Origin: Acidaminococcales bacterium
Lineage (GTDB): Bacteria; Bacillota; Negativicutes; Acidaminococcales; JAISLQ01
Assembly: GCA_031290885.1 (NCBI GenBank)
Contig: JAISLQ010000065.1
Coordinates: forward strand, 1 to 54,366
Length of the DNA stretch: 54,366 bases
Reading direction: 5' to 3'
The notes under the pieces were generated by a model, which worked only from the letters and a program-made list of their open reading frames with translations, did no database searches and was not told where the DNA came from. Position 1 is the first letter of the stretch; each line of letters begins with the position of its first letter. Positions 16,882 to 33,212 of this stretch are shown one piece after another. A program made the translations under genes and the position numbers.

Positions 16882-17607
<726 letters not shown>

Positions 17608-18141: not shown

Positions 18142-19113
18142 TCATGGTTGCCAATACTTGCTGCCTTCGTCGGTCAAATCCTTAAAAAGCACGGTGGACA
18201 AGTAACGTTCCCCGGTATCGGGCAGAAGCGCCACGATGGTTTTGCCCTCGTTTTCCGGGCGCAGGGCAACTCTGGCCGCGGCAAAGGCCGCCGCCCCCGA
18301 CGATATGCCGACCAGCAGCCCTTCGGTTCTGGCGAGCACGCGCGCGGTGTCGATCGCTTCTTCATTTTTTACTTTGTAGATTTCATCAACTACTTTAAAG
18401 TCAAACACTTTAGGCACAAACCCGGCGCCGATACCTTGTATTTGATGCACCCCCGGCGCCCCGCCCGACAGGACGGGGGAGTCCGCCGGCTCGACGGCGA
18501 CGATCTTGACGGCGCTTTTTCTGCTTTTCAGCGCCTCGCCCACGCCGGTAACGGTGCCGCCCGTACCTACGCCGCCAACGAAAACATCCACTTTGCCGTC
18601 CGTGTCCCGCCAGATTTCCTCGGCGGTAGTCGCCCGGTGTATGGCGGGATTGGCCGGATTGTTGAATTGCTGCAATATAATGGCGGACGGTACGGAAACG
18701 GAAAGTTCTTCCGCTTTCCTTATGGCGCCTTTCATGCCGTCCGCGCCGGGCGTCAGCACCAGTTCCGCGCCCAGCGCCTTGAGCAGGGATCGCCTTTCCA
18801 GGCTCATGGTGTCGGGCATGGTCAGGATGATCCTGTAGCCGCGAGCCGCCGCCACAAAGGACAGCCCGATCCCGGTGTTGCCGCTGGTCGGCTCAATAAT
18901 AACCGAATCGGCGCGCAGCAGCCCTTTTTCTTCCGCATCCAGAATCATCGACAAAGCTATTCTGTCCTTCACGCTGCCGGCGGGGTTGAAATATTCCAGC
19001 TTCAGCAGAAGGTCCGCTTTTATCCTGGCTAATTTCAAAAATGATTTCGGCCGCAAAAGCGGGGTATTGCCGATCAGGTCAGTTAAAGAATCCACAGCGG
19101 TGGCCATTTGCAT
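18142..19113 (-). CDS. cysK: Cysteine synthase (O-acetylserine sulfhydrylase)
   Basis: The protein has 323 residues. [11 protein letters not shown] carries the pyridoxal phosphate lysine, TSGNTGIG binds the substrate carboxylate, GTGGTVTG holds the cofactor phosphate, and [11 protein letters not shown] is the C-terminal signature. It makes cysteine from O-acetylserine and sulfide. AAGGAAG precedes the ATG (a second ATG two codons on is possible). It starts 22 bases after the nitrogenase-like alpha gene, as the last gene of that operon. This placement suggests that sulfide is a product of the upstream reductive system. Confidence 0.95.
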
Positions 19114-19135
19114 ACTTCCTTTCTTTGTTGAATTA

Positions 19136-20683
19136 TCACAGTTGCGCTTCTTTTATATTATCAAAAGGATTGCTTTCGTACCACTCCTTTCGGAAAGGCA
19201 AGGCTACGTTGGCCGCTATTTTTTTCGCCAGATTGGTATTTTGGAAAGCCCTCGCCGCTTTTCTGGCCAGCTCAAAGGCGCCCGAATAGCCCATGTAGTT
19301 AAAGGACTGCCCATAAAGCGGCGTAGTCGTCAGCCCCAGTTTCGTCGCCCAGCCGTTGGCGCCGCCGTGCCCGACATATAAATCGGGCTTAAGTTTTTTC
19401 AAAATGACCATCTCTTCCGCCGGTTGGCCTGGCGCAACGTCAATAACGGCGTCCTGGTCGTTTATTTCCTCAATCATCGGCACGGCGAAATGATCGAAGT
19501 TGTGCGGTTTTAAGCCCAGCACCCTCATTCCCAGCGACTGATAAAATTCGGCGGTGGTAAATATGCGCGTTTCCCCGCCGCCGACAAATACAGTCTTGTT
19601 CTTGAGCGCCGCTTTCAGCGGCTCCAGCGCCTCCGTCAGTTGGCTTGTCTCCAATTGGATGAGGTTCTCGGTTTCTTTTTCCAGGCGCATGGCTTTGCCA
19701 ATGGCGCGCAGCCATTTGTTGGTATTTTTGATCCCGATTGGCAGAGTGTCTATTATATACTCCGTGCCGAACCGTTCTTTTAAGTGCCCTACCAGATAAT
19801 CGTCGTGCGTGGCGCAAATGCTTATATTAAGCGCCGCTTCGCCCATGCGGGCGATTTCGTCAATATGCCCGAAAAGCGGCAGCACGTTAACTTTGAGGCC
19901 CAGCGCCGTAAGCAGCCTGGAAAGCTCCACCTCGTCGCCATAGCTGGTAGATCCGACGTTTAAAAGGTTGACCGTTCTGTTTCTTACATACTCTTCCCCG
20001 GCGTCCAGAAGCGCCGCCCCAACATCGTTCGGCACGGCGCGCCTGTAACGGGCGGGCGGGTCGGCCAGTTTTTTCAGCAGGCCGTGGTAAGCGGCGTCAT
20101 AGCCGCTGGCGACAAACTTGCTCCGAAACCCTTCGCAGTGTACCGGAACCACGCGGGCGGACAATTGCGCGTCCAATTCGTCAAGCAGCGGGTCTATGTC
20201 GTCGCCGATAATGCCCGGGACGCAGCTGTTGCCTACTACGATGACGTCAGGCCGGTACTCTTTTTCGGCGTAAAGCACCGCGTCGCGCAGTTTCTGCTGG
20301 CCGCCGTCAATAACGTCGCGCTCGTCAAGATTGGTATGCATCCATACTACATCCTGGACCGGCTTCCCTTTCAGCGCGCGCGCCGTCTTATTAAACCCCG
20401 CCAGCCCGATGTTGTTGGAAGCGCAGCCAAGCGGGCCGTGTATGATGACCACGACATTTTGAAAAGTCCGCACTATGCCGAGCGCCAAAGTGAGCTGGCA
20501 ACCGTTGCCCTGCGCGAATTTCCTGCTGTTGAACTTGAGGCATCCTTGCCCCATGCCCGTCTTCAAGCCGCAGCAAGAACCGCCGAAAGCGGTCGTCGCC
20601 TGTATGCGCTCCTCGCGCGTCGGAGCGGCGTCCGCTCCAAGATAATTATAGGTCAAGCCTTTGGTCAATTCGTTTTCCGCCAT
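19136..20683 (-). CDS. Nitrogenase component 1-like protein, alpha-type subunit
   Basis: The protein has 515 residues and aligns by eye with NifD-type subunits. Three cysteines match the P-cluster ligands: Cys62 (GNGCQL), Cys87 (GPLGC) and Cys154 ([11 protein letters not shown]). VHCEGFRS matches the NifD segment VRCEGFRG. Cys290 in [11 protein letters not shown] lies where NifD has its cofactor ligand Cys275. The NifD His442 position appears to be Gln459 ([11 protein letters not shown]). Extra cysteines (37, 38, 48) sit in an N-terminal stretch. No nifH, nifB, nifE or nifN gene is seen nearby, so classical nitrogen fixation is unlikely. GGGAGGGGAAG precedes the ATG. Function is unknown, but a reductase is likely. 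Confidence 0.85.
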
Positions 20684-20732
20684 TTACTTCCCCTCCCCGC
20701 GCCGTTCATTTTGCCGAATGTGCGCTTTTCGG

Positions 20733-22073
20733 CTACCGGTTGGCCACCAGCGCGGAAAAAATGTCCTCCGCCAGCGTCAAGGCGCCCCGATAACCTGTAT
20801 ATCCTTTATTTAAAACCGCCCTGTTGGTAACCGGAAAAACTACCGGCAAAAAGCCCGCGCCCACCTTTTGCGCCGTGCCGGCTTCCAAACTGCTGCCGAT
20901 GAGAAACGCGGGGCTTAAAGCGTTGTAATATTTATCGTTGCGATTTTGCGGCCAGCTCTCTTTGATATGTTTGAGCAGCTGCCCGGTGTTTTGTTCAAAA
21001 ACCAGCTTGGGCTTTGCCAAAGAAGTGATGTTTTTATACTTTTTTTCGTATTTTTTCCGGCTGAAGTCGTCCAGTTCCTCGTTTATCACCACCAAGTGCG
21101 GTATCCAGCCGAGATCCTCGCTCAAAAAACTGACGAGGGGATAAGCGTAATTAATATCGGCGGAAACTATGGCGTAACGCTGCAGATCAATGTCGCCGTA
21201 GATTTCCAGGAAACGCTGGAAATAACTGTAATAATATTTTCTTTCTTCGTTTATGACCGTTTCCAGGTCAACATCTTTAATTTCCAGGGGATCGGCTATT
21301 TTGCGCAGGAAGTTTTCCGTTCCCGTGTCGCCGATCGGCAGATCGGTCGTTATATAGGGCATGCCGTGTTTTTCTTCAAAGGTTTGCGCGGCCTGCAAAC
21401 CGTGTTTTTCCGAAAACACTATATTAAGGCCCGCGCCGCCGTATTCGCGTATTTTGGCGATGGTCTCCCCGTCGCCGAAAAAGCTGTTGGCCTTTATGCC
21501 CAATTTGCCGAGCAACTGGACTATATTGCTTATATTGCCCCGGCAAAAAACATCTTGCCCCGGCATGATGCCCAGAATATTTACGGTTTTCTTGTCCTTT
21601 TTTGCCTTGGGGCTGATAAAATCGGCGGCGAGCGTACTGAGCACCAGATCGTAGCCCTTGAAGCCATTGCCGGCGAAACCGGGCGTACTCGCGCAAAGCA
21701 CCGGATATTTCCCGCCTTTGAACCGCCCGGCTACGCTCTGCGCGTCGTCGCCGATAATTTCCACCTGGCAGCCTGTAACGACAAAATACAAATCGCCGTC
21801 CATTACCTTGATCGTATGCTCAATTTGCTCTTCTAACCGGTCTTCGCCGCCAAAAACAATATTCTTTTCAATGATGTTGGAAGTCGGGGTCATGGTGCCG
21901 CTGCAATAATCCGCCCCCTTGTAAGCGCCGCCAAGATTGTAGGCGGCGGAAAGCGTCTGCGCGCAGCCGCCGGAAGCGTGGACGACGGGGATCGCCCTGG
22001 GCAGGGACGAAATAGTTACAAGGGCGCCGCCCAAAGCGCAGGTGGTTTTGGCTCGTTCAATAAAACCTGACAC
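20733..22073 (-). CDS. Nitrogenase component 1-like protein, beta-type subunit
   Basis: The protein has 446 residues from a GTG start with AAGGAGAT eight bases upstream. Cys12 (AKTTCALGGAL), Cys37 (ASGGCAQ) and Cys102 (VTGCQVEIIGDD) match the three P-cluster cysteines of NifK. Together with the alpha partner, all six cluster cysteines are kept, so a P-cluster-like [8Fe] centre is expected at the interface. The protein is shorter than NifK and lacks its long N-terminal extension. It lies 49 bases before the alpha gene in transcription order (beta first, then alpha), opposite to nifDK order. Confidence 0.85.
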   Translation of the reverse strand: MSGFIERAKTTCALGGALVTISSLPRAIPVVHASGGCAQTLSAAYNLGGAYKGADYCSGTMTPTSNIIEKNIVFGGEDRLEEQIEHTIKVMDGDLYFVVTGCQVEIIGDDAQSVAGRFKGGKYPVLCASTPGFAGNGFKGYDLVLSTLAADFISPKAKKDKKTVNILGIMPGQDVFCRGNISNIVQLLGKLGIKANSFFGDGETIAKIREYGGAGLNIVFSEKHGLQAAQTFEEKHGMPYITTDLPIGDTGTENFLRKIADPLEIKDVDLETVINEERKYYYSYFQRFLEIYGDIDLQRYAIVSADINYAYPLVSFLSEDLGWIPHLVVINEELDDFSRKKYEKKYKNITSLAKPKLVFEQNTGQLLKHIKESWPQNRNDKYYNALSPAFLIGSSLEAGTAQKVGAGFLPVVFPVTNRAVLNKGYTGYRGALTLAEDIFSALVANR

Positions 22074-22092
22074 AAAAACATCTCCTTGCTTT

Positions 22093-22290
22093 TTACTGTT
22101 CTATGGCCGCGTTAAGATCGCGCACAAGCCGTACGATGTCTATCCCATGCGCCGCCGCCCCTTGCTCTATGCTCTCAAAATGCGCTATGGCGCAGCCTAT
22201 GCAGCCCATGCCGTGCCGGGAGAACACTTCTGCGGTCTCCGGATGCCGGCCCACTACTTCGCCGATGCCGTTTTCTTTGGAAATGGACAT
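22093..22290 (-). CDS. DUF1858 domain protein with CxxC motif
   Basis: The protein has 65 residues. The pattern IGEVVGRHPETAEVFSRHGM, then CIGC, then HGIDIVRLVRDLN, matches the DUF1858 family, which also forms the N terminus of ScdA/RIC-type iron-repair proteins. GAGGTGGG lies before the ATG. It sits 19 bases before the nitrogenase-like beta gene, so it is probably part of the same system. It may help in metal-cluster handling or electron transfer, but no function is proven for such stand-alone proteins. Confidence 0.85.
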   Translation of the reverse strand: MSISKENGIGEVVGRHPETAEVFSRHGMGCIGCAIAHFESIEQGAAAHGIDIVRLVRDLNAAIEQ

Positions 22291-22314
22291 GTTCCCACCT
22301 CATTTTATTTTTGC

Positions 22315-22590
22315 TCATATGTTTATGGCCAAAGCTTGTTGTTCCTTTTCATGCGCCGCTACGCTCTGCTGGGCGATAATGGCCGCGCCCAGCGCTCCGG
22401 CGTAGATGGTGTCAAGGTTGACTTTGCTGAAAGGATATTTTAGAATGTCTTCCAACGCTTTTTTCATGCCGGCGTTATTAGAAACTCCGCCGGTGAAAAT
22501 GATATCAGGCGCAAGCCCCATCCTATTCAGCAGATTTTTCACGCGGCGCGCTGTGGCTAAATGTATGCCGGCCGCGATATCGGCGCGTTT
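22315..22590 (-). pseudogene. Truncated BadF/HgdC-type activator (C-terminal 91 residues)
   Basis: The frame opens right after a TGA at 22591-22593, eleven bases downstream of the binding-protein stop, and reads KRADIAAGIHLATARRV..., then TGGVSNNAGMKKA and the ending ALAINI. This matches the last third of the full activator at 25106-25987, which has the same ending. The ATP-binding N terminus and both cluster cysteines are missing. It is a remnant of a third activator gene, left after deletion. A short product from an internal ATG (75 residues) cannot be excluded but would lack activity. Confidence 0.85.
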
Positions 22591-22600
22591 TCACAGGTTC

Positions 22601-23611
22601 TTACTTTTTGTAATAAGGATTAAACTCGTTAGTATAAATATCCGATGCTTTTACATCGCCTTTTATCTCATCGAATTCCCGTAACAAATCGATCCACACT
22701 GTAATAGTTTCTTCTTTGATTATGCCGTCCGGCGCGTAGTAGCCTTCCGTCATGTCCTGGCCTTTCAAGCCGCCGCCGGCCGCTTTGGCGGATATTTCCA
22801 TCGCCTTTTCCGGGTTGGCGTTGGCCCAATTGAGCGTCTCAGCTGTAGCTGCGACAAAATTTCTTACTGTCTCGGGATTGCTTTTAATAAACTTGTCGGA
22901 GAAAAAGAGCGGGGTAGCGCCGCCAATCGTCCCCCAAATGTCATAATCGGAAAAAAGCACTTTAAACTCGCCGTCTTTGTCTATCTCCGCAGGTATCTTG
23001 TGCAACATGATCAAATCAAGGTCGTTCTGCCTGAGTGCCTGTTGCAGTTGTTTTTCCGGCAATATAATGATTTCCACTTTGCTTTTGGGGTTTTCCACGC
23101 CGTTTTTTTGCAAATAGGCGTAAGGAGTATATTCATGGCATCCACCTGTTTGGGTTATGCCAATTTTTTTGCCCAAAAGATCCTTTGCGCCTTTGATAGG
23201 GCTGTCTTTCCTGATAACGCCAACCATGTGCGGAACGCGTTTGGATGTTTCCTGTCCGCCTACGACCGCCTTGACTTTGGCACCAGCAGAAATGCCGGCT
23301 ATTGTCCTGTTTATGTGGGAAGGATGCGTAACGTCGACTTTGTCTGCCACTACTGCGGCAATGGCCTGCGATGAAGGGACAGAGCCCACGATCTCTAATT
23401 TGATGCCATGTTTGACAAAGAAGCCCTGACTGTTTCCCACCTCGAAAATATCGGGCGTAAGCGAACCGGACTTTTTCGGCACCCTGACGACGGAAAGTTT
23501 CCTGCCGCCTGCGTCTGCCGCTTCTTTGCCCGCTTGTTTCCCGGTGGAGCAGCCGGCACATAAAATTAAAACAAAGAATAAGGCAAACCAAAATCGTGTA
23601 TTCTTCTTCAT
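22601..23611 (-). CDS. ABC transporter substrate-binding lipoprotein (sulfonate/nitrate/taurine type)
   Basis: The protein has 336 residues. It starts with a lipoprotein signal: basic MKKN, a hydrophobic run, and the lipobox LCAGC with Cys21 as the lipid anchor. The mature part has the SsuA/TauA/NMT1-like pattern, with repeated AIAAVVADKVDV and GKKIGITQTGG segments and QALRQNDLDLIMLHKIPAEI. It would capture the substrate outside the membrane for the permeases at 28224-29845. In this operon it is separated from its transporter partners by the dehydratase-type genes. The ligand is not predictable by eye. Confidence 0.88.
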   Translation of the reverse strand: MKKNTRFWFALFFVLILCAGCSTGKQAGKEAADAGGRKLSVVRVPKKSGSLTPDIFEVGNSQGFFVKHGIKLEIVGSVPSSQAIAAVVADKVDVTHPSHINRTIAGISAGAKVKAVVGGQETSKRVPHMVGVIRKDSPIKGAKDLLGKKIGITQTGGCHEYTPYAYLQKNGVENPKSKVEIIILPEKQLQQALRQNDLDLIMLHKIPAEIDKDGEFKVLFSDYDIWGTIGGATPLFFSDKFIKSNPETVRNFVAATAETLNWANANPEKAMEISAKAAGGGLKGQDMTEGYYAPDGIIKEETITVWIDLLREFDEIKGDVKASDIYTNEFNPYYKK

Positions 23612-23669
23612 ACTGATATCCCCTTTCCTCTACCGTTTTCCCGCCAACGACCTGTTGCGGCAAAAGCCG

Positions 23670-24884
23670 TCAGGCCAGCATTTCCACAAAAGCCTTTATC
23701 CTTGTCAGCACTTGCCCGCTGGGATTGCCTACTTGGAAAGACCCTTCCAAACTGATGCTTGGTATGCCTTTTTCATGAAAATATTTCCGCCAAAGCTCCC
23801 TGTCCACGCTGGCGAAAGAGCAGCCCAAATAGCCATAGAAAATGATTCCCTTGGCTTTTAGCCGCTCCACTTCCGCTTCGATAAAATCGCGGGCATACAC
23901 GCTGGCACCAGCTCTTTGGCTGTTGTACACATAATTGATTAAAGATTGTATAGGCGGCAGGGTTTCGTCATATAGTTTAGGTATGCTGCGAAAGCCCAAA
24001 AGTGCACCGTTGGACTGGTCAATGGCTTCATAAAGGCCAAATTCCTGGCCTGTGCCACCTCCCCAAACCAAAGGAATCACTCGCTTAAGCTCCGATTCAT
24101 TAACAGGCTGGTTTTCCAATTCAGCCAGCAGAAGATCCACCGCATCCTCAAATTCATCCGGTTTGCCAAAATAATTGCTGACGCCGACATTCAGCATAAG
24201 AATAGTGGGCAGGCTACGGATATAAAACGGGTGTTGAACGCGTAAGTCCAATATTTTTTTGACTTTTTTGATCAAACGGTTGCTGCGCAGAATTTCGCCG
24301 CGCAATTTTTCTTCGTCAATTTCTCTTTTGCCTGTCAGCCATTCGGCGACATCATAAAGCTGTTCGGCGAAAAAATTGGCAAGCTCCTGCAGCCGGATGC
24401 CGGTGACGGAAGGCGCACGATACAGCACATCGTAGTTAAAAACGTCATAACCCTCCCGGCGCATGATTTCCCAAGACAGATTGTAAGGTTCGCAATTGGA
24501 ACTTCCGCCGAGTATCTTTTTAATTCCGCCGCCCTGTCGGAGATGCCATTGTCCCACCGTACATTTGACCATAGAACAGGTTTCGGCAGGAAACTGGTAG
24601 TAATCCTCGGCGATGAGCATTTCATCCATAGTGCTGTAACGGCCCATTTCCGTGTACCCCGCTGGAATGGCGTCAAGGCTGTAGAGAAAAAGCGGCTCCC
24701 AATTATAAGTATGGCACCAGACGGCTTGCCTGCCGTTCGCATGGGCTTTCTCCGCATCGGGGATATAAGAGGCCACAAGATTGAGTATCTTTTTCACCGC
24801 CGGAGAGTAGTCGTGCAATTTTTTGTTGTAAGAAAGATAATCTTTCTGAAACCCATCCGTTTTCGCGCTGTCCATGCCTTGCAC
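23670..24884 (-). CDS. 2-hydroxyacyl-CoA dehydratase D-component family protein (double-cubane type candidate)
   Basis: The protein has 404 residues from a GTG at 24884 with AAGGGAT upstream; an ATG three codons later is the alternative. It belongs to the HgdB/BcrC/double-cubane cluster superfamily. Cysteines at 57, 103, 108, 131 and 354 are candidates for iron-sulfur ligands; Cys103 and Cys108 sit in ETCSMVKC. Family members bind [4Fe-4S] or [8Fe-9S] clusters and receive electrons from an ATP-driven activator, which is encoded directly upstream. No CoA-transferase or acyl-CoA gene is present, so a role as a small-molecule reductase is more likely than a classic dehydratase. Confidence 0.85.
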   Translation of the reverse strand: MQGMDSAKTDGFQKDYLSYNKKLHDYSPAVKKILNLVASYIPDAEKAHANGRQAVWCHTYNWEPLFLYSLDAIPAGYTEMGRYSTMDEMLIAEDYYQFPAETCSMVKCTVGQWHLRQGGGIKKILGGSSNCEPYNLSWEIMRREGYDVFNYDVLYRAPSVTGIRLQELANFFAEQLYDVAEWLTGKREIDEEKLRGEILRSNRLIKKVKKILDLRVQHPFYIRSLPTILMLNVGVSNYFGKPDEFEDAVDLLLAELENQPVNESELKRVIPLVWGGGTGQEFGLYEAIDQSNGALLGFRSIPKLYDETLPPIQSLINYVYNSQRAGASVYARDFIEAEVERLKAKGIIFYGYLGCSFASVDRELWRKYFHEKGIPSISLEGSFQVGNPSGQVLTRIKAFVEMLA

Positions 24885-25105
24885 CCATCATCCCTTCTCT
24901 CATCTTCTTAAATAATGTGGATTAAATTTATTGGCTCATAAAAACATAAACTCTACAAACTGCCTTTTTCTTGGCGCCCGCTTGTTATCTGACCGCTGCC
25001 GCAGATAGGGCTGAATAAGCGCAATCTGCACGGCCAATGAAAACAAAGATTCAAATTGCCAGCCTGCATTTTCTTCCCCTTATCGTTTAATTTTGCCGAG
25101 TGCTT

Positions 25106-25987
25106 TTAGATGTTTATGGCCAAAGCTTCCTGCTCGTTTTCATAATTTTTGATGCTTTGCTGCGCTATGGCAGCCGCCCCCAAAGCACCGGCATAAATGG
25201 CGTTCAGCCTAACAGCGATGAATTTTTGCCCGAGCACTTCTTCTACTGCCTGTTTCATGCCTACATTATTGGAAACCCCGCCGCTGAAAAGAAGTTCCGG
25301 CACAAGGCCGATGCGGTTAAACAGGTTCTTGACGCGCCGGGCGTTGGCCAGATGTATTCCGGCCGCTATGTCGGAACGTTTTTCATTTTTGGCCCGCAAC
25401 GAAATTACTTCCGATTCAGCGAAAACCACGCACTGGCTGCTGATATCGGAAGGCTTGGTGGCTTTTAAAGCTTCTGCGCCCAGTTCTTCCGTAGTGAGAC
25501 CCAGCAGTTCGGCCGCTTTTTCCAAAAAACGGCCTGTTCCCGCCGCGCATTTGTCATTCATGATAAATTCCACGACTTTTCCGTTTTTTTTGTCCACCCG
25601 GATCGCTTTAGCGTCCTGGCCGCCGATGTCAACGATGGACTGCACGTCGGCGTTCAGATAGTGAGCGCCCATGGCGTGGCAGGAAATTTCCGTGATTATT
25701 TTCTTTCTGATGCCGCCGGCATCGAAGGCTATGCGCCCATATCCTGTGCCGACCACGTACTCTATATCGCCGGCTTCTATTTGGGCTTCGGCGCTGATTT
25801 TTCCCAAAAGCCTGTCTACCGTCTGTTGGGTGAAAACCGCCGTGGGTGTTATGGCTGTGTATATTTTTCCCTGGCGCAGCAGCACCGCTTTGCCTGTGCG
25901 GGAGCCTATATCAATGCCCAAAGCCGTTGATTCGTCCAGTTCGCCTGCCACGCGCCCGTCCAGCGCGTCCTCAAATTTTACGCCCAT
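25106..25987 (-). CDS. ATP-dependent activator, BadF/BadG/HgdC type
   Basis: The protein has 293 residues from the ATG at 25987, preceded by GGGGGAAG; the longer frame to 26077 lacks such a site. It has the ASKHA fold: GIDIGSRTGKAVLL as phosphate-1 loop, IVDIGGQDAKAIRV, and SGGVSNNVGM as adenosine motif. The cysteines of NDKCAAGTG and SSQCVVFAES are the two per monomer that hold the [4Fe-4S] cluster bridging the homodimer. It hydrolyses ATP to push electrons into the dehydratase-type partner at 23670-24884. The 221-base gap to that gene has no clear promoter. Confidence 0.92.
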   Translation of the reverse strand: MGVKFEDALDGRVAGELDESTALGIDIGSRTGKAVLLRQGKIYTAITPTAVFTQQTVDRLLGKISAEAQIEAGDIEYVVGTGYGRIAFDAGGIRKKIITEISCHAMGAHYLNADVQSIVDIGGQDAKAIRVDKKNGKVVEFIMNDKCAAGTGRFLEKAAELLGLTTEELGAEALKATKPSDISSQCVVFAESEVISLRAKNEKRSDIAAGIHLANARRVKNLFNRIGLVPELLFSGGVSNNVGMKQAVEEVLGQKFIAVRLNAIYAGALGAAAIAQQSIKNYENEQEALAINI

Positions 25988-26108
25988 GATCTTCCCCCTT
26001 GTCCATATTCTGCGCTTTTCTGCTATATTTAAGTATTCGGCCTGTGTACGCATATTGTCTATTGCGCCAAATTCCATAAAAATCCCGATTCCGAATGCCG
26101 TTGGCCGC

Positions 26109-28142
26109 TTAAGCCGATTTTACCTCGCCTTTTTTTCCCCTTTCCCCTAAAACCTCAATAAAAGCCTCCAGCCTGGTTTTCAATTGGCCCTGATCGCTGG
26201 CTGAATAATCAAGAGCGATTTCCAGCACGGGAATGCCAAGTTCTTGGTAATGTTTAAAGAATTGATGCTTGATCTGCCCGTAACAGGGACAAAATTTCAG
26301 ATAAACATATAGTATGCCATCCACTTGGTATTCCTTGGCCAATTGGCCGGATATCTCTATGCGCTCCTGCAAAGGCTTCATTCTGGTGCAGGGCGATTGG
26401 TCAAGGTAACCTTCCGCTATCGCCCTATAAGGGTCGATGGTTTCGTCTATCTGATAGCTGACATTCCTCGCCCCCGTACAATGATCCTCTATTACCACGC
26501 GGGCGCCCGCGATGTCCTCCACCAATTCCAAAAGCCGCCTGTCTCCATCGGCCACGATGCCGCCCGCCATCATCAGCCTGATAGGCTTTCGGCCATCATC
26601 TGCTTTGCTCAGGATTTGGCGGTAAATTTCTTCGTAAAGCGCAAGCAATTCATGGGGAGGCAGATAATAATAGGCCTTGACCAAATCGAGGAAATCCTTG
26701 CCCGTGATCGGTGGGTTTTCCCTTTTGCGCAGGTCGGAAATGGTTTTCAAAGATCGCCTGACTTGGTTATAAAGTTTTATTTGCTCTTTCACGGCTTCTG
26801 CGGCAATGTTATTGCCGGAGAGTTTTTCCAAGTCTTCTTTAAAATTAAGTATTTCCCTATGATAATAATCGCGGGAAGACGCTTTGTGCCTAAGCCGTGG
26901 CAAGGTGAAAATTTCCGAGGAGGTGAAGAAGTCCCCTATGGCCTCCCCCACTTTCTTGATGCAGTCGCAGGTATAGAATGTATAAACTTTGTCCAAGGCT
27001 TTGTAGAGCGCTACGCCTTCCTTGAAGGCGCCCAGAATGCTCTTGGTAAAGTCGCAGAAAACGCTTTGCGTGATCAATTCGCCGCTGGCCACTATCTCCG
27101 TGTTGCCCATCTTAAAAAGGCGCATTTGATTCACGCCGGCGGCGTTTATCAGCTCCAGCGGCGTATAAGTGCAAAGATAGCCAATGCTTTTTTTTCCGGT
27201 TTTTCCCTCAATAATGCTATTTTGGTAAGCGATCAGGCGTTCTTCCAGTTTGCCAAGATTTAGGCTTGCCCTTTCTTTTTCTTTCCGGCCTGCGGACGCG
27301 CCTCCTGCCGCCAGAAATTGCCGGGCGTGGATAGCAGCGCCCAGCGCCCCTGCGTATACGGCGTTAAGCTTAAACTCGCTTATAGGATAGCCAACTAAGT
27401 CCTCAATGGCTTTTTTCATGCCGACATTGTTGGAAACGCCGCCGGAGAAGGCAATACCCGGTTCTATGCCTACCCTGCTCAGCAGATTGCGCACGCGCCG
27501 CGCCGTTGCAAGGTGTATTCCGGCCGCCACGTCTTCGCGGCTGGCACCTTTTGCCCTTAACGAAACCACCTCCGATTCGGCGAAAACTACGCATTGGCTA
27601 CTGATTTCCGCAGGCGCTTGCGACTCTAGGGCAATCGGCCCGAGCTCTGTCAGGCCAATATCCAACAGTTGGGCTACCTTTTCCAGAAACCTGCCTGTAC
27701 CTGCCGCGCATTTGTCATTCATGACAAACGACACCACCTTGCCTGTTTCCGGGTCTACCCTGATTGCCTTGGAGTCTTGCCCGCCTATGTCGATAATAGT
27801 TTTGATGCTGGCATTCAAATAATGCGCGCCCATGGCGTGGCAAGATATTTCCGTAACTATCTGGCTCGGCAGACGATCGAAGCTCATGGCCACGCGGCCA
27901 TAGCCTGTGCCGACAATATATTTGATATCGCCGTAGCGCTTCCCGGAAACTTTTAAAAGTTCCGCCAACAATGTATTGGCCGTATCTTGCATGTTCACAT
28001 CGGTAGGCAACTGCGCGGCGTATAATTCGCCGCCGTCCAAAAGCACAGCTTTGGCTTCCCGCGAGCCTATATCTATGCCCACAACCGTATCGCCACTTAT
28101 TTCCCGATATAGCCTTGCGTCAATAACCTCGTTTATTTTCAT
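26109..28142 (-). CDS. Fusion of BadF-type activator and 2-hydroxyacyl-CoA dehydratase-type protein
   Basis: The protein has 677 residues. Residues 1-275 form a complete activator: GIDIGSREAKAVLL, IIDIGGQDSKAIRV, cluster Cys145 (DKCAAGTG) and Cys184 (SSQCVVFAES), and SGGVSNNVGM. A charged linker (about 280-315) leads to a dehydratase D-component domain. This has GYLCTYTPLELINAAG (Cys324), Cys363, Cys392 and Cys394, DHCTGARN (Cys555), Cys585, and LKFCPCYGQIKHQF (Cys618, Cys620). A single chain thus carries both the ATP-driven electron pump and the acceptor. It lies between the permease and the second activator gene. Its substrate is unknown. Confidence 0.9.
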   Translation of the reverse strand: MKINEVIDARLYREISGDTVVGIDIGSREAKAVLLDGGELYAAQLPTDVNMQDTANTLLAELLKVSGKRYGDIKYIVGTGYGRVAMSFDRLPSQIVTEISCHAMGAHYLNASIKTIIDIGGQDSKAIRVDPETGKVVSFVMNDKCAAGTGRFLEKVAQLLDIGLTELGPIALESQAPAEISSQCVVFAESEVVSLRAKGASREDVAAGIHLATARRVRNLLSRVGIEPGIAFSGGVSNNVGMKKAIEDLVGYPISEFKLNAVYAGALGAAIHARQFLAAGGASAGRKEKERASLNLGKLEERLIAYQNSIIEGKTGKKSIGYLCTYTPLELINAAGVNQMRLFKMGNTEIVASGELITQSVFCDFTKSILGAFKEGVALYKALDKVYTFYTCDCIKKVGEAIGDFFTSSEIFTLPRLRHKASSRDYYHREILNFKEDLEKLSGNNIAAEAVKEQIKLYNQVRRSLKTISDLRKRENPPITGKDFLDLVKAYYYLPPHELLALYEEIYRQILSKADDGRKPIRLMMAGGIVADGDRRLLELVEDIAGARVVIEDHCTGARNVSYQIDETIDPYRAIAEGYLDQSPCTRMKPLQERIEISGQLAKEYQVDGILYVYLKFCPCYGQIKHQFFKHYQELGIPVLEIALDYSASDQGQLKTRLEAFIEVLGERGKKGEVKSA

Positions 28143-28201
28143 AACATGTTTCCCTTCTTTTCCTCGCGTTTTGCGATATTATCTTTGCTCGTCCGCCGAT
28201 C

Positions 28202-28233
28202 TTGCCCTTGAATGAGATCTCATTCAAGGGCAA
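28202..28233. repeat. Perfect 32-base palindrome
   Basis: TTGCCCTTGAATGAGA is followed directly by its exact reverse complement. The palindrome covers the last codons of the permease gene and its downstream flank. Neither strand shows a T run after it, so it is not a normal intrinsic terminator. An operator, an RNA processing site or a transcript-stabilising hairpin are possible. Confidence 0.85.
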
Positions 28234-28991
28234 TCTTTCCAGACAGTCAGCTTGCGCTCAAGTTTTACCAAAAGTAAATTAACGATCATGCCAAGGCTAA
28301 TAAGAGTAATTATGGCACTGTACATTTTTTCTATTTCTTCCTTGTGCTGTGCGTCAAATATCAGATATCCCAGGCCGGAGGACGCGCCAAGCATCTCCGC
28401 CGCCACCAGCACCACTATGGAGCGGGTCGCGCTTATTCTAAGGCCTGTCAGGATAAAAGGGATCGACGCAGGCAGCACCACCTTCACAAACAATTGAAAA
28501 GTGGAAACGTTCATCGTCCTAGCGGCTTTTATATAGATAGGGCTGACTGCGTTAACTCCTTCTATTGTATTGATAAGGAGAGGCCAAAGCGCCCCCCAGA
28601 AAATAATGCCGATCTTGGCTGTTTCGCCCAGCCCGAAAATCAAAAGCACCACCGGATAAAGGGCCAAGGATGCTGTATTTCTGAAAAGCTGAACTATAGG
28701 ATTGAAAATACGGTTGACACGATTGAACCAGCCCATGGCTACGCCCAATGGAATAGCCGTCGCGACCGCTAAAAAAAATCCTGCCAAAGATCTTTGTAAA
28801 CTTATATAAATGTGTTCAGGCAATTCCCCAGAGAACATTATTTTAAGCCACTCCGACAGTACGCGCAGGAAAGACGGCAAAGTCCTTTCGTCTATAATGC
28901 CAAGCGAAGGGCCAACTTGCCACAAAAACAGCACGAAGCAAATGACGGCGCTTTTTTTCAGCCAGCGGCCAATTCTTGAAGTCCTGAACAT
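28224..28991 (-). CDS. ABC transporter permease (SsuC/TauC type), second copy
   Basis: The protein has 255 residues from the ATG at 28991, with GAGGAT upstream; the longer frame to 29030 would overlap the preceding gene. It has about six membrane segments and the binding-protein-dependent permease loop: AARTMNVSTFQLFVKVVLPASIPFILTGLR, which contacts the ATPase. LGASSGLGYLIFDA is typical of sulfonate/nitrate/taurine permeases. It likely pairs with the neighbouring permease as a heterodimer, because both have the same family features. Confidence 0.9.
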   Translation of the reverse strand: MFRTSRIGRWLKKSAVICFVLFLWQVGPSLGIIDERTLPSFLRVLSEWLKIMFSGELPEHIYISLQRSLAGFFLAVATAIPLGVAMGWFNRVNRIFNPIVQLFRNTASLALYPVVLLIFGLGETAKIGIIFWGALWPLLINTIEGVNAVSPIYIKAARTMNVSTFQLFVKVVLPASIPFILTGLRISATRSIVVLVAAEMLGASSGLGYLIFDAQHKEEIEKMYSAIITLISLGMIVNLLLVKLERKLTVWKDCP

Positions 28992-29002
28992 GCGGCATCC
29001 TC

Positions 29003-29845
29003 TCATCCTTTGCTGATATCTTCCCGCCATACGGTGAATTTTTTTTCGAGATGGAACAAAAGAGTATTTAACGACACGCCGATGACAGAAAGGATGATGA
29101 TGCCGCCGTACATTTCCGGCACGGCGTATCTGGCTTCATAATAGAAAATCATGAACCCCAAGCCAGCATTGGCGCCTACCATTTCCGCCGCTATCAGCAC
29201 TAGGATGGAACTGGCCGCCCCCAATCTGACGCCGGTAATTATATAAGGCAAGGCCGCTGGCAAAAGAACCTTGAAAAGCAGTTCAAAATCGTCAATGCCC
29301 ATTGATTTGGCCGCTTTGACCAAAATACGGTCGACATTCTTGACTCCGACAATGGTATTAAGCAAAACCACCCAAACAGTTCCCCACATGATAATGGAAA
29401 TTTTGGCTTTTTCTCCTATTCCAAATAGCAAGATAAAGATCGGATAAAGAGCCAATACCGAACAATTGCGGCAAGCCTGCACTAACGGATCCGCTATCTC
29501 TTCGAACTTTCGGAACCAGCCCATAACGATGCCCAAGGGAATTGCCACCAAAAGCGCCGCAAAAAAGCCTATCCCCCAACGAAAAAGGCTGATATTAAAA
29601 TGCTTGAAAAATTCGCCGGTGTAGATCAACTTGGCGGTATGGCTCACTACTTCGCTGAAAGGGCAAAGGAGGAAAGGGTCTACCAACCCCATCCTTGGGG
29701 ATATTTCCCAAAAAATAATAAGCACAAATATGATAAAAGACCTTTCCAAGAAAGAAGCTATCGTCTTGGCCGCTCTGCAGTCAGAGCGGACGCTTTCGTC
29801 CTTAGCAACTCTGTCGGCTATGTCGGTATTTATATTAACTGGCAA
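29003..29845 (-). CDS. ABC transporter permease (SsuC/TauC type), first copy
   Basis: The protein has 280 residues with a short cytoplasmic N terminus and about six membrane segments. AAKSMGIDDFELLFKVLLPAALPYIITGVRLG is the coupling loop, and VGANAGLGFMIFYYE matches the family. It ends 12 bases before the start of the second permease gene. The two permeases differ in sequence but share the fold, so they form the membrane part of one importer. A perfect hairpin separates this gene from the ATPase gene upstream. Confidence 0.9.
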   Translation of the reverse strand: MPVNINTDIADRVAKDESVRSDCRAAKTIASFLERSFIIFVLIIFWEISPRMGLVDPFLLCPFSEVVSHTAKLIYTGEFFKHFNISLFRWGIGFFAALLVAIPLGIVMGWFRKFEEIADPLVQACRNCSVLALYPIFILLFGIGEKAKISIIMWGTVWVVLLNTIVGVKNVDRILVKAAKSMGIDDFELLFKVLLPAALPYIITGVRLGAASSILVLIAAEMVGANAGLGFMIFYYEARYAVPEMYGGIIILSVIGVSLNTLLFHLEKKFTVWREDISKG

Positions 29846-29872
29846 CTCATTGCCACCCTTCCCATAAAATTA

Positions 29873-29908
29873 AAAAGCCAAAAATAATTCTGCTTATTTT
29901 TGGCTTTT
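29873..29908 (-). terminator. Terminator-like hairpin between ATPase and permease genes
   Basis: AAAAGCCAAAAATAA (29873-29887) pairs exactly with TTATTTTTGGCTTTT (29894-29908), a 15-base stem with a six-base loop and T-rich arm on both strands. It lies between the ABC ATPase gene and the rest of the operon. Partial readthrough would lower expression of the downstream genes relative to the ATPase gene. Confidence 0.75.
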
Positions 29909-29955
29909 AGTCATTCTAATCGGCCCGGGCGCTTATTTATTTATTTATTGCATCG

Positions 29956-30837
29956 TTACAGCACGGCCCTGGCGTCTATTACCTTGGCGATGTCCTGTTC
30001 GGGATTGGTTTCCTGTTTTTCCTCCAATTCGCCTTTTTGTAAAAGCTGCCATACCTTGTGCCTGATCCAGCCAAATTCCGCCGAGCCCCTTACTCCCTGG
30101 CGCGGCCTGCTAAGTTCCACGTTGAGCGTTGCCTTTATCCTGCCCGGGGCAGTATCCATAACCGCTATGCGATCGGCCAGGAAAACCGCCTCGTCTATGC
30201 CGTGCGTAACAAAAACAATGGTCTTTTTGGTTTCTTCCCAAATCCGCAGCAACTCCTCCTGCATGATCTCGCGCGTCTGCGCGTCCAGCGCGGCAAACGG
30301 CTCGTCCATCAAGAGCACTTCCGGGTCAAAAGCCAAGGCGCGGGCAATCGCCACCCGCTGTTTCATGCCGCCGGATATCTCATGCGGGTATCTGTTGGCA
30401 AAATCCTTAAGCCCCACCAGTTCTATATAATGTCCGCTTATTTCCGCGCGCTTGCTTTTAGGGATTTTCTTTATTTCCAAACCAAACTCCACGTTCGCTT
30501 TCACCGTAAGCCAAGGAAAAAGCGCGTAACCTTGCATGACAAAGCCCCTGTCCATTGCCGGGCCTTTTATTACCCGGTCGTCTATGGTTATCTCGCCGGA
30601 AGTTGGGTGGTCAAGCCCGGCCATCAGGTCAAGAAAAGTCGATTTGCCGCAGCCGGACGGCCCGACTATCGTCAAAAACTCGCCGGGATACACATCGATA
30701 TCGACGTCCTTGAGCGCGACAAACTCCTCATAGCCCGGGCCGTCTTCGCGCCTTGTCCGAAAAACCTTGTTGATGCCGCGCGCCTTTATCTTCGCGGCAA
30801 GTCCGCCTGTATATTCATCTTGCCGTTTTGTCTGCAT
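29956..30837 (-). CDS. ABC transporter ATP-binding protein (SsuB/TauB type)
   Basis: The protein has 293 residues. GPSGCGKST is Walker A, QGYALFPW the Q-loop, SGGMKQRVAIARAL the signature, and VLLMDEPFAALD Walker B, followed by FVTHGIDEA with the switch histidine. The family resemblance is to sulfonate, nitrate and taurine importers, with a C-terminal tail of about 50 residues beyond the ATPase core. AAGGAGC lies before the ATG. It is the first full gene behind the promoter at 31086-31114 and energises the two permeases encoded downstream. Confidence 0.92.
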   Translation of the reverse strand: MQTKRQDEYTGGLAAKIKARGINKVFRTRREDGPGYEEFVALKDVDIDVYPGEFLTIVGPSGCGKSTFLDLMAGLDHPTSGEITIDDRVIKGPAMDRGFVMQGYALFPWLTVKANVEFGLEIKKIPKSKRAEISGHYIELVGLKDFANRYPHEISGGMKQRVAIARALAFDPEVLLMDEPFAALDAQTREIMQEELLRIWEETKKTIVFVTHGIDEAVFLADRIAVMDTAPGRIKATLNVELSRPRQGVRGSAEFGWIRHKVWQLLQKGELEEKQETNPEQDIAKVIDARAVL

Positions 30838-31085: not shown

Positions 31086-31114
31086 ATTTTACCTCTTTTC
31101 GTTTCGCGTGTCAA
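31086..31114 (-). promoter_or_regulatory. Strong sigma70-type promoter of the importer/reductase operon
   Basis: On the minus strand a perfect TTGACA (31109-31114) is followed after 17 bases by TAAAAT (31086-31091). The start would be near 31078, giving a leader of about 240 bases before the ATPase gene. The 31115-31376 stretch upstream holds no supportable gene. Confidence 0.8.
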
Positions 31115-31376: not shown

Positions 31377-33212
31377 TTAATTATGCAACGCGCCCTGTTT
31401 AAAACCCTGTTCGCTGCGCGCGAAGTATGTTTTTACGGCTTCCGCCGCTTTTTTGGTCATGCCCGGCACTTTGGCCAATTCTTCTGCCGAGGCTTCCCGG
31501 ATGGCACGGATGGAGCCGAAGCGCCGCCGGAGCGCGTCGCGCCGCGCCGCGCCTATTTCCGGTATGTTGTCGAGTATTGACGTCAGGTTTCTCCGGGCGC
31601 GCAGTTTCCGGTGATAGGAGATGGCAAAGCGGTGCGCTTCGTCGCGGATCCGTCGGAGAAGGAGCAGGGCGGGCGAATCCGGCGGCAGGCAAAGCGGCTC
31701 GCTTGCCCCTTCAAGCCATATTTCTTCAAACCTTTTGGCCAAACCGATGGCCGGCGTATCAAGGCCCAGGCCGCGGATGACCTCCAGCGCGGCGCCGAGC
31801 TGCCCTTTGCCGCCGTCGATTATGATCAGCTGCGGCAGGTTTTCGTATTTTCGGTAACGCCGCAGCACGACTTCGGCCATCGCCTGGAAGTCATCCGGCT
31901 TGCCTTCGGTGGAGCGTATTTTGTAGCGGCGGTAATCGCCGCCGCTGGCCGCGCCGCCTTTAAACACTGCCATGGAGGCGACAGTTTCCGCCCCTTGTAT
32001 GTGCGATATGTCGAAACAGTCTATCCGTTCGGGCGGCAGAGGAAGGCCAAGCGCGAGCGCCAACGGGTCAAGGGATGCCGTTTGCCGGTTTTCTGCGGCC
32101 TTTTTGCGCGCTTTTTCTTCTTGCAGCAAGGCGGAGGCGTTTTCCGCCGCCAGGGCCAGAAGGTCCTTTTTCAGCCCGCGCCGGGGATGGATCAGTTTTA
32201 CTTTCTTTTTTTTGATTTCGGACAGCCAATAGGAAAGAATCCCGGCTTCCTCCGGCAAAAGGGCGACCGGGCAGATTATTTGCGCGGGAGCGGATACGGC
32301 CTTGCTGTAATATTGTTGTATAAAAGCCGCCAAGGCGGCCCGTTCGCTGTTTGCGTCGCCGCCGGTCATCAGGAAATAGTCGCGCCCGCTTATTTTGCCG
32401 GCGCGGACAAAAAATACCTGTACGCAAATGTCGCCGCCGTCTTGCGCCAGGCCGACGACATCCGCGTCGCCGGCGATGGTGGCGGCGGTCTGCTGCTGGC
32501 GGACGGCTTCTATGGCGTTTATTTGGTCGCGCAGGAGGGCGGCTTGTTCGTAGCGCAGTTCAAGGGCGGCGGTTCGCATGTTTTTTTTAAGCTGGTTCAA
32601 GAGGGACTCGCTTTTCCCTTCCAGAAAAAAGCCGACATTTTCGGCCATTTTGGCGTATTCCGCTTTGTCTACCCCGCCGCCGCACGGCGCCAGGCAACGT
32701 TTTATGTGAAATTCCAGGCAAGGCCTTTTGCCCATTTTGCGGCAGGTGCGCAAGGGGAACACCTTGCGCAGAAAGTCCAGCGTCCGGCGCATGGCGCCAA
32801 CGTCGGCGTACGGGCCGAAATAGCGCGAACCGTCCTCAACCAGCCGCCGGGTGGCAAATGCCCTGGGATATTCTTCGCGCAGGGTAAGCTTGATATAAGG
32901 GTAGCTTTTGTCGTCTTTCAAAAGGACGTTGTATTTGGGGCGGTATTTCTTGATCAGGTTACATTCGAGGATGAGCGCTTCCAGTTCGTTGGCGGTAACT
33001 ATGTATTCAAAATCAGCGATCCGGGAGGACAGCGCCTGCGTCTTGCCGCCGGAGGCGCCGCCCGCGCGAAAGTAAGAGCGTACCCGGTTGCGCAATACCG
33101 ACGCTTTGCCGACGTATATCACGTCCGCATCTTTGTCCCTCATGATGTACACGCCCGGCTGAGCCGGCAAAAGGGAAAGTTTTTCTTCTATCCGGTTTTT
33201 GTTATCTTCCAT
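31377..33212 (-). CDS. uvrC: Excinuclease ABC subunit C
   Basis: The protein has 611 residues, the normal UvrC length. The N-terminal GIY-YIG nuclease domain (PGVYIMRDKDADVIYVGKA) makes the 3' incision. A UVR motif near residues 200-235 contacts UvrB. The C-terminal endonuclease domain begins with the family segment CFDISHIQG, and a helix-hairpin-helix pair lies at the end. It starts 13 bases after uvrA, so uvrB-uvrA-uvrC form one operon for nucleotide excision repair. Unlike in many bacteria all three subunits are together here. Confidence 0.97.
   Translation of the reverse strand: MEDNKNRIEEKLSLLPAQPGVYIMRDKDADVIYVGKASVLRNRVRSYFRAGGASGGKTQALSSRIADFEYIVTANELEALILECNLIKKYRPKYNVLLKDDKSYPYIKLTLREEYPRAFATRRLVEDGSRYFGPYADVGAMRRTLDFLRKVFPLRTCRKMGKRPCLEFHIKRCLAPCGGGVDKAEYAKMAENVGFFLEGKSESLLNQLKKNMRTAALELRYEQAALLRDQINAIEAVRQQQTAATIAGDADVVGLAQDGGDICVQVFFVRAGKISGRDYFLMTGGDANSERAALAAFIQQYYSKAVSAPAQIICPVALLPEEAGILSYWLSEIKKKKVKLIHPRRGLKKDLLALAAENASALLQEEKARKKAAENRQTASLDPLALALGLPLPPERIDCFDISHIQGAETVASMAVFKGGAASGGDYRRYKIRSTEGKPDDFQAMAEVVLRRYRKYENLPQLIIIDGGKGQLGAALEVIRGLGLDTPAIGLAKRFEEIWLEGASEPLCLPPDSPALLLLRRIRDEAHRFAISYHRKLRARRNLTSILDNIPEIGAARRDALRRRFGSIRAIREASAEELAKVPGMTKKAAEAVKTYFARSEQGFKQGALHN

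Follow-up and report, generated by a model that had tools for sequence, protein, structure and literature searches.

A single run of genes in an Acidaminococcales bacterium places an ATP-binding cassette (ABC) importer, an activase/double-cubane module, a nitrogenase-like pair and a cysteine synthase gene (cysK) next to each other, which raises the question of what one operon could do with ATP-driven low-potential reductases of two unrelated classes. The run occupies part of contig JAISLQ010000065.1 (54,366 nucleotides; this whole stretch, as analysed, is the window) in a 2.1-Mb assembly of 85 contigs (GCA_031290885.1). The answer that we favour, with a probability of roughly one half, is organosulfur scavenging: uptake, ATP-driven reductive desulfurization and capture of the resulting sulfide by CysK. 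The parts are of known kinds, and the novelty lies in bringing the two reductase classes together and in the active-site signature of the clade to which the D-like nitrogenase subunit (D2) belongs. No description of the combined locus was found in the open-licence literature. The original prediction, made from the sequence alone, had regarded the combination as undescribed; this stands for the joining with a benzoyl-CoA-reductase-like module, but the association of nitrogenase-like enzymes with importers and sulfur is already known (PMC11423573, PMC12552129).

Organization of the operon

Gene families were assigned with Pfam and NCBIfam profile models. Twelve features, all on the minus strand, run from 30837 to 18142 as one operon-like unit, flanked by uvrC (31377–33212) and pyrR (16882–17487):

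29956–30837, minus strand: ATPase of the ABC importer (SsuB/TauB/SaoA-like), first gene of the operon; best NCBIfam model NF040729 (SaoA), 260.8 bits, below the cut-off of 360, followed by NtrCD and TauB
29003–29845, minus strand: permease 1 of the ABC importer; SaoP, TauC and SsuC models, each below cut-off
28224–29030, minus strand: permease 2 of the ABC importer (PF00528), overlapping permease 1 by 28 nucleotides (nt)
26109–28142, minus strand: ActHGD, 677 amino acids (aa), an activase fused to a double-cubane (BzdN/DCCP-like) domain; activase Cys145/184, double-cubane Cys324/363/392/555/585/618
25106–26077, minus strand: Act, a separate activase (BzdP/Q-like), 323 aa; TIGR00241, 234.7 bits, above cut-off; Cys177/216
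23670–24884, minus strand: HGD, an HGD-D subunit, 404 aa, with three invariant cysteines, Cys103/131/355; proposed substrate-binding [4Fe-4S] subunit
22601–23611, minus strand: SBP, NMT1/SsuA-type binding lipoprotein of the importer (Pfam/NCBIfam)
22315–22542, minus strand: remnant of a second activase, C-terminal 75 aa; PF01869, 36.7 bits; in-frame stop codon upstream
22093–22290, minus strand: DUF1858, a redox-disulfide domain with a CxxC motif (Cys30/33); TIGR03980, 84.1 bits, above cut-off
20733–22073, minus strand: D1, K-like (beta) nitrogenase component 1 (PF00148); P-cluster Cys12/37/102
19136–20683, minus strand: D2, D-like (alpha) nitrogenase component 1 (PF00148); P-cluster Cys62/87/154, cluster ligands Cys290 and His439
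18142–19113, minus strand: cysK, O-acetylserine sulfhydrylase; TIGR01139, 451.7 bits (cut-off 350.95); 22 nt downstream of D2

Intergenic gaps range from −28 to 110 nt, except for 221 nt between Act and the 404-aa HGD. With its ATPase, permeases and NMT1/SsuA-type SBP the importer forms a complete set of the SsuABC/TauABC type, and its genes score below the curated cut-offs of the substrate-specific models. The original prediction had described a co-oriented block of importer, activator/dehydratase genes, DUF1858, nitrogenase-like pair and cysK, and every gene that it named was found on the minus strand where it had been placed; its inventory was correct apart from the activase remnant, which it overlooked.

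A nitrogenase-like pair related to methylthio-alkane reductase

Both D1 and D2 match PF00148, yet they fall far under every curated nitrogenase model (D2, nifD, 121.6 bits against a cut-off of 653.55; D1, nifK, 77.8 bits against 427.3). Among solved structures, the closest to D1 and D2 are the K and D subunits of methylthio-alkane reductase (Mar, MarBHDK; PMC12552129; PDB 9fmg, 9d9u), with E values of 2.7e-65 for D1 and 1.6e-57 for D2. The AlphaFold model of D2 (predicted local distance difference test, pLDDT, 82.6) has 9fmg_A as its top Foldseek match, with a template-modelling (TM) score of 0.82 by query and 0.90 by target. The original prediction had named Mar as an example of a nitrogenase-like enzyme that can release sulfur, and the pair is indeed nearest to Mar in sequence and in fold. 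The active sites were compared in an alignment of 81 sequences, using MarD numbering. D2 retains the three P-cluster cysteines, as well as the equivalents of the [Fe8S9C] ligands, Cys290 for Cys270 and His439 for the loop-I His429, both of which are invariant in group A3; D1 retains the three K-type P-cluster cysteines.

D2 nevertheless differs from MarD, to which it is 27% identical. Arg428, which is adjacent to the His ligand and has been proposed as a hallmark of Mar (PMC12552129), is kept in the Mar-like clade but is missing in the D2 clade of the window and in all other xH clades. Likewise, none of the active-site residues Cys73, Gln74, His194, Trp195, Phe199 and His375 is present in D2, where these positions are occupied by G, I, F, V, Y and N, respectively; this type of pocket is common to all 13 clade members, with F or Y at position 194. 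In a quick tree search with Shimodaira–Hasegawa-like approximate likelihood-ratio (SH-aLRT) support, the D2 clade is fully supported and nested in a 49-row group lacking Arg428, which is sister to the group containing MarD. Judged by its sequence, D2 represents an undescribed clade related to Mar, with an active-site signature of its own.

Two other assignments were rejected. A canonical Mo-nitrogenase (NifDK) is at odds with scores far below the curated cut-offs and with the location of the conserved His in the Mar loop rather than in the NifD loop (His442). Isethionate reductase (Isr, IsrBHDK with SsuCAB; PMC11423573) resembles the window system in combining a nitrogenase-like reductase with an SsuABC-type importer, in that case for sulfur assimilation, but IsrD keeps only one of the three P-cluster cysteines (the Cys88 equivalent) and has no equivalent of Cys275, whereas D2 has all four, including Cys290. 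Moreover, IsrB and IsrH are encoded inside the Isr operon and have no counterpart in the window locus, and the product of Isr from isethionate is sulfite.

NifH is absent from the locus, and the counterparts of marB and marH lie outside the operon. NifH- and NifB-type partners are nevertheless present in the source genome, which encodes one true NifH (contig C72) and one NifB-like protein (contig C35), both away from the locus. No NifH gene was found within 6 kb of any of nine window-clade D2 genes, while all 12 other genomes examined that carry the clade contain one. As NifH is never near D2 but is present in the genomes, D1D2 is likely served by a shared NifH, an arrangement that has been proposed for Heliophilum (PMC9147875). 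The source genome holds two further nitrogenase-like pairs. On contig C72 (L042, 4522–13183), a second cysK, the only NifH of the genome, D1, D2 and an importer are found side by side; the pair on contig C79 (L043, 2271–5096) has the full set of Mar-type residues (R-H, W, F, H), is accompanied by permeases and a binding protein, and adjoins thrS. None of the genome's six PF00148 matches was recognised as a canonical NifDK or NifEN subunit.

A benzoyl-CoA-reductase-like module

Class I benzoyl-CoA reductase comprises a six-Cys [8Fe-9S] subunit, a three-Cys open-site [4Fe-4S] subunit and a separate ATP-driven activase dimer, and the double-cubane protein family works at very low reduction potential (PMC11971306). 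The same layout is found in the window (compare BzdNOPQ/MbdONPQ; PDB 8s02, 9gai), with two activase parts, a six-Cys double-cubane subunit and a three-Cys subunit. Besides its two activase cysteines, ActHGD carries six invariant cysteines that align with the [8Fe-9S] ligands of the double-cubane cluster protein (DCCP; 7yyl/6eno). HGD has only three cysteines, which in a joint alignment pair with Cys363/392/618 of ActHGD. Because of this match in cysteine layout, ActHGD, Act and HGD are best read as a single ATP-driven reductase of the class I benzoyl-CoA reductase kind. Two separate activator/dehydratase systems had been predicted; the genes are there, but the division into two was rejected, since HGD has three cysteines and pairs with ActHGD. 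In the same way, the term double-cubane-type protein holds for the 677-aa ActHGD and not for the 404-aa HGD.

The module is classed as working like these enzymes rather than as a member of their families, because its scores lie below the curated cut-offs. The DCCP model NF040772 (cut-off 350 bits) gives 245.1 bits for ActHGD and 48.9 for HGD, and the Bzd/Bcr subunit models also remain low (bzdQ, 206.7 bits against 380.2; bzdN, 105.4 against 453.8). The best solved relative of the activase domain is MbdQ. The AlphaFold model of HGD (pLDDT 84.0) matches DCCP, HadC and BzdO about equally in Foldseek, and its sequence is closer to DCCP and HadC than to BzdO. A correspondence of HGD Trp56 with BzdO Trp46 was also tried, but the N-terminal alignment there did not resolve. 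Unlike class I benzoyl-CoA reductase, the window module has its activase and double-cubane domain fused, and HGD is not known to use CoA esters. DCCP and DCCP-R (PDB 6eno, 7yyl, 7yzm) differ as well, DCCP being a homodimer with a separate activase, whereas in the window the double-cubane domain shares one chain with an activase and has a three-Cys HGD as its partner. The activase remnant between SBP and DUF1858, with 48 of its 75 residues identical to the activase C-terminus, is the trace of an earlier duplication within the operon.

Recurrence in other genomes

GTDB contigs were scanned with an HGD alignment, which yielded 39 loci. One of them (L149) contains the entire operon in the order ABC-perm-perm-ActHGD-HGD-HGD-Act-SBP-SBP-D1-D2-cysK, at 48–80% identity per gene, and two more (L144 and L146) follow this order up to the locus end. 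A conserved neighbourhood had been set beforehand as the test on which the original prediction could fail, and the gene set does recur: since it is found gene for gene elsewhere, the operon is more than a chance arrangement. All three loci come from metagenome-assembled genomes (MAGs) labelled Deltaproteobacteria, and the L149 D2 is the sister of the window D2 in the tree (99%), which suggests horizontal transfer; mis-binning is a less likely cause. Related arrangements occur in L143, L155–L159, L161, L162, L169 and L179, and rearranged forms in loci of Sporomusa, Pelosinus, Pelotomaculum, Syntrophomonadaceae and Paenibacillus; Sporomusa sp. KB1 and Paenibacillus rhizophilus have HGD/ActHGD cassettes close to nitrogenase-like genes. 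In G084, G148 and UBA5324, another nitrogenase-like pair is inserted between the two permeases of the cassette, which therefore has joined nitrogenase-like enzymes more than once. Within a class sample of 251 genomes, each of the seven other HGD genomes carries a window-clade D2, itself present in ten (hypergeometric 1e-11, uncorrected for kinship). More distant HGD relatives (32–44% identity) mostly have no nitrogenase-like genes nearby.

Across 16 cassettes the copy number of HGD rises with that of SBP (rho 0.83, uncorrected for kinship), while ActHGD and Act are each present once or not at all. Since HGD and SBP covary and the activase parts stay single, HGD may be a substrate-specific subunit matched to SBP. 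Tandem HGD genes, up to at least four, and five SBP genes are found in the Deltaproteobacteria MAG cassettes L144, L146 and L150.

The link to sulfur

As predicted, cysK is tied to the system, lying 6–53 nt from D2 in 11 of 13 clade members. The source genome has no siroheme sulfite reductase (NIR_SIR) domain, so reduced sulfur would be the useful product there, and no use for sulfite is evident. There are precedents for such a link: sulfur scavenging by a nitrogenase-like enzyme with an SsuCAB importer is represented by Isr (PMC11423573), and C–S cleavage by a nitrogenase-like enzyme by Mar (PMC12552129), from which the window pair differs in having cysK downstream and the benzoyl-CoA-reductase-like module joined to it. 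Nitrogenase-like DK genes near MetY or CysK are described in the available parts of the reports on the P. corrugata spirochete (PMC13067680) and on non-selenium mlp clusters (PMC10418091), and those parts mention no benzoyl-CoA-reductase-like module with the DK genes. The same neighbourhood, with importers in addition, is found on the Candidatus Chlorohelix plasmid, whose locus also differs from the window in having no such module.

Proposed function and alternatives

In the proposed scavenging pathway, the ABC importer would take up one or several organosulfur compounds, such as sulfonates, thiols, thioethers or S-heterocycles. The Mar-like D2D1 would contain a P-cluster and an [Fe8S9C]-type cluster made by NifB, would be served by the genome's NifH, which is encoded away from the operon, and would cut the remaining C–S bond; CysK would convert the freed sulfide into cysteine. 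The class of substrate, the cluster types, sulfide as the product and the order of the two reductases are the conjectural parts of this scheme. Given that HGD and SBP copies increase in step, with ActHGD and Act kept at a single copy, the system may work as a funnel: each of several imported substrates would be handled by an HGD of its own, and all would end at the same desulfurizing nitrogenase-like enzyme. In its full form, with substrate-specific HGDs sharing one ATP-driven double-cubane donor, converging on a new Mar-related enzyme and passing sulfide to a dedicated CysK, this undescribed scheme is advanced tentatively. If true, it would be the first pathway in which ATP-driven low-potential reductases of two unrelated classes act one after the other.

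Several observations speak against scavenging by such a joint pathway. A third cysK elsewhere in the source genome means that the window cysK is not the sole route to cysteine. Act-ActHGD-HGD occurs on an Azoarcus plasmid with no nitrogenase-like gene nearby, as it does in Chlorobi loci, and so has functions of its own; HGD, SBP and DUF1858 are present in UBA5318, a genome without NifH, and D2-cysK is found without HGD in G112, G067 and G037. Each reductase can thus occur without the other, and the two need not work in sequence. They could instead be independent enzymes for different substrates that share an importer type in a cluster of convenience, with only D1D2-cysK concerned with sulfur. 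The occurrence of each module alone favours this, as do the islands of relatives in which several nitrogenase-like pairs and importers stand side by side, but a compact full operon has been kept between distant genomes, and the cassette has been paired with a nitrogenase-like enzyme repeatedly, so we consider full independence unlikely. Another proposal is that the benzoyl-CoA-reductase-like module releases sulfite from sulfonates, with D1D2 as an ATP-driven reductase of sulfite, a sulfur oxyanion, feeding CysK. The lack of a siroheme reductase domain in the source genome, the SsuA/TauA-type importer and the release of sulfite from isethionate by Isr (PMC11423573) fit this idea; yet siroheme reductases (NIR_SIR domains) are encoded in 11 of the 12 other clade-carrying genomes, which need no replacement, and the nearest characterised relative, Mar, cleaves C–S bonds, which makes sulfite reduction quite improbable. 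The idea that D1D2 replaces sulfite reductase in general is not supported, since most relatives have siroheme enzymes.

To a system unconnected with sulfur, which would reduce N2 or another nitrogen compound or handle organoselenium or organometal compounds, with cysK supplying cysteine for cluster assembly, we give little credence. The importer does resemble the Sao (selenocysteine-assisted organometallic) models, although below their cut-offs, one report connects a double-cubane protein with selenium clusters (PMC10418091), and Heliophilum NflDK1 may fix N2 (PMC9147875). However, the His ligand of D2 is in the Mar loop, neither NifEN nor canonical NifDK appears among the PF00148 matches of the source genome, and cysK is bound to D2 and not to cluster-assembly genes. 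Least credible is that the activase/double-cubane module donates electrons to D1D2 in place of NifH. Activases and double-cubane proteins supply very low-potential electrons, and no NifH lies near the nine D2 genes, but the source genome and all 12 others keep NifH, window-clade D2 occurs without HGD in three genomes, neither D1 nor D2 has lost its P-cluster cysteines, and the HGD copy number rises with SBP, not with D.

Few nitrogenase-like enzymes have a known function, and little is known of what double-cubane proteins reduce in the cell; by linking both orphan groups to one importer and CysK, the operon offers them a concrete, testable function. Organosulfur scavenging by this operon would point to an anaerobic way for bacteria to obtain sulfur from organic molecules that bypasses the reduction of sulfate or sulfite, and the D2 clade would be a natural variant in which to see how the protein environment redirects a nitrogenase-type cluster from N2 towards C–S bonds.

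Leader region and additional loci

A promoter-like site precedes the operon:

31086–31114, minus strand: TTGACA-17-TAAAAT, an 11/12 match to consensus only, about 250 nt upstream of the first gene

No riboswitch or T-box was found in the leader of about 250 nt (Rfam, E up to 1). About 75 nt past the promoter-like site there is a long, perfect hairpin (31009–30980, minus strand), followed by a T-containing stretch, which is a possible attenuator without an Rfam match.

In a Geobacter MAG (L168, 16685–21155), tandem radical SAM proteins follow an NMT1-type importer and Act-ActHGD-HGD, with two cysK genes upstream. A genome lacking NifH (L142, 801–7821 and 9890–12598) has HGD-SBP-DUF1858 beside QRPTase/ModD-like, DUF364 and FeMo-co-domain genes. 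Finally, three genomes (G148:C1:2888153-2958389, G050:C1:184501-330000 and G605:C1:2760001-2830000) contain islands in which a number of distinct nitrogenase-like pairs lie together with SsuABC-type importers; these islands represent a large family expansion.

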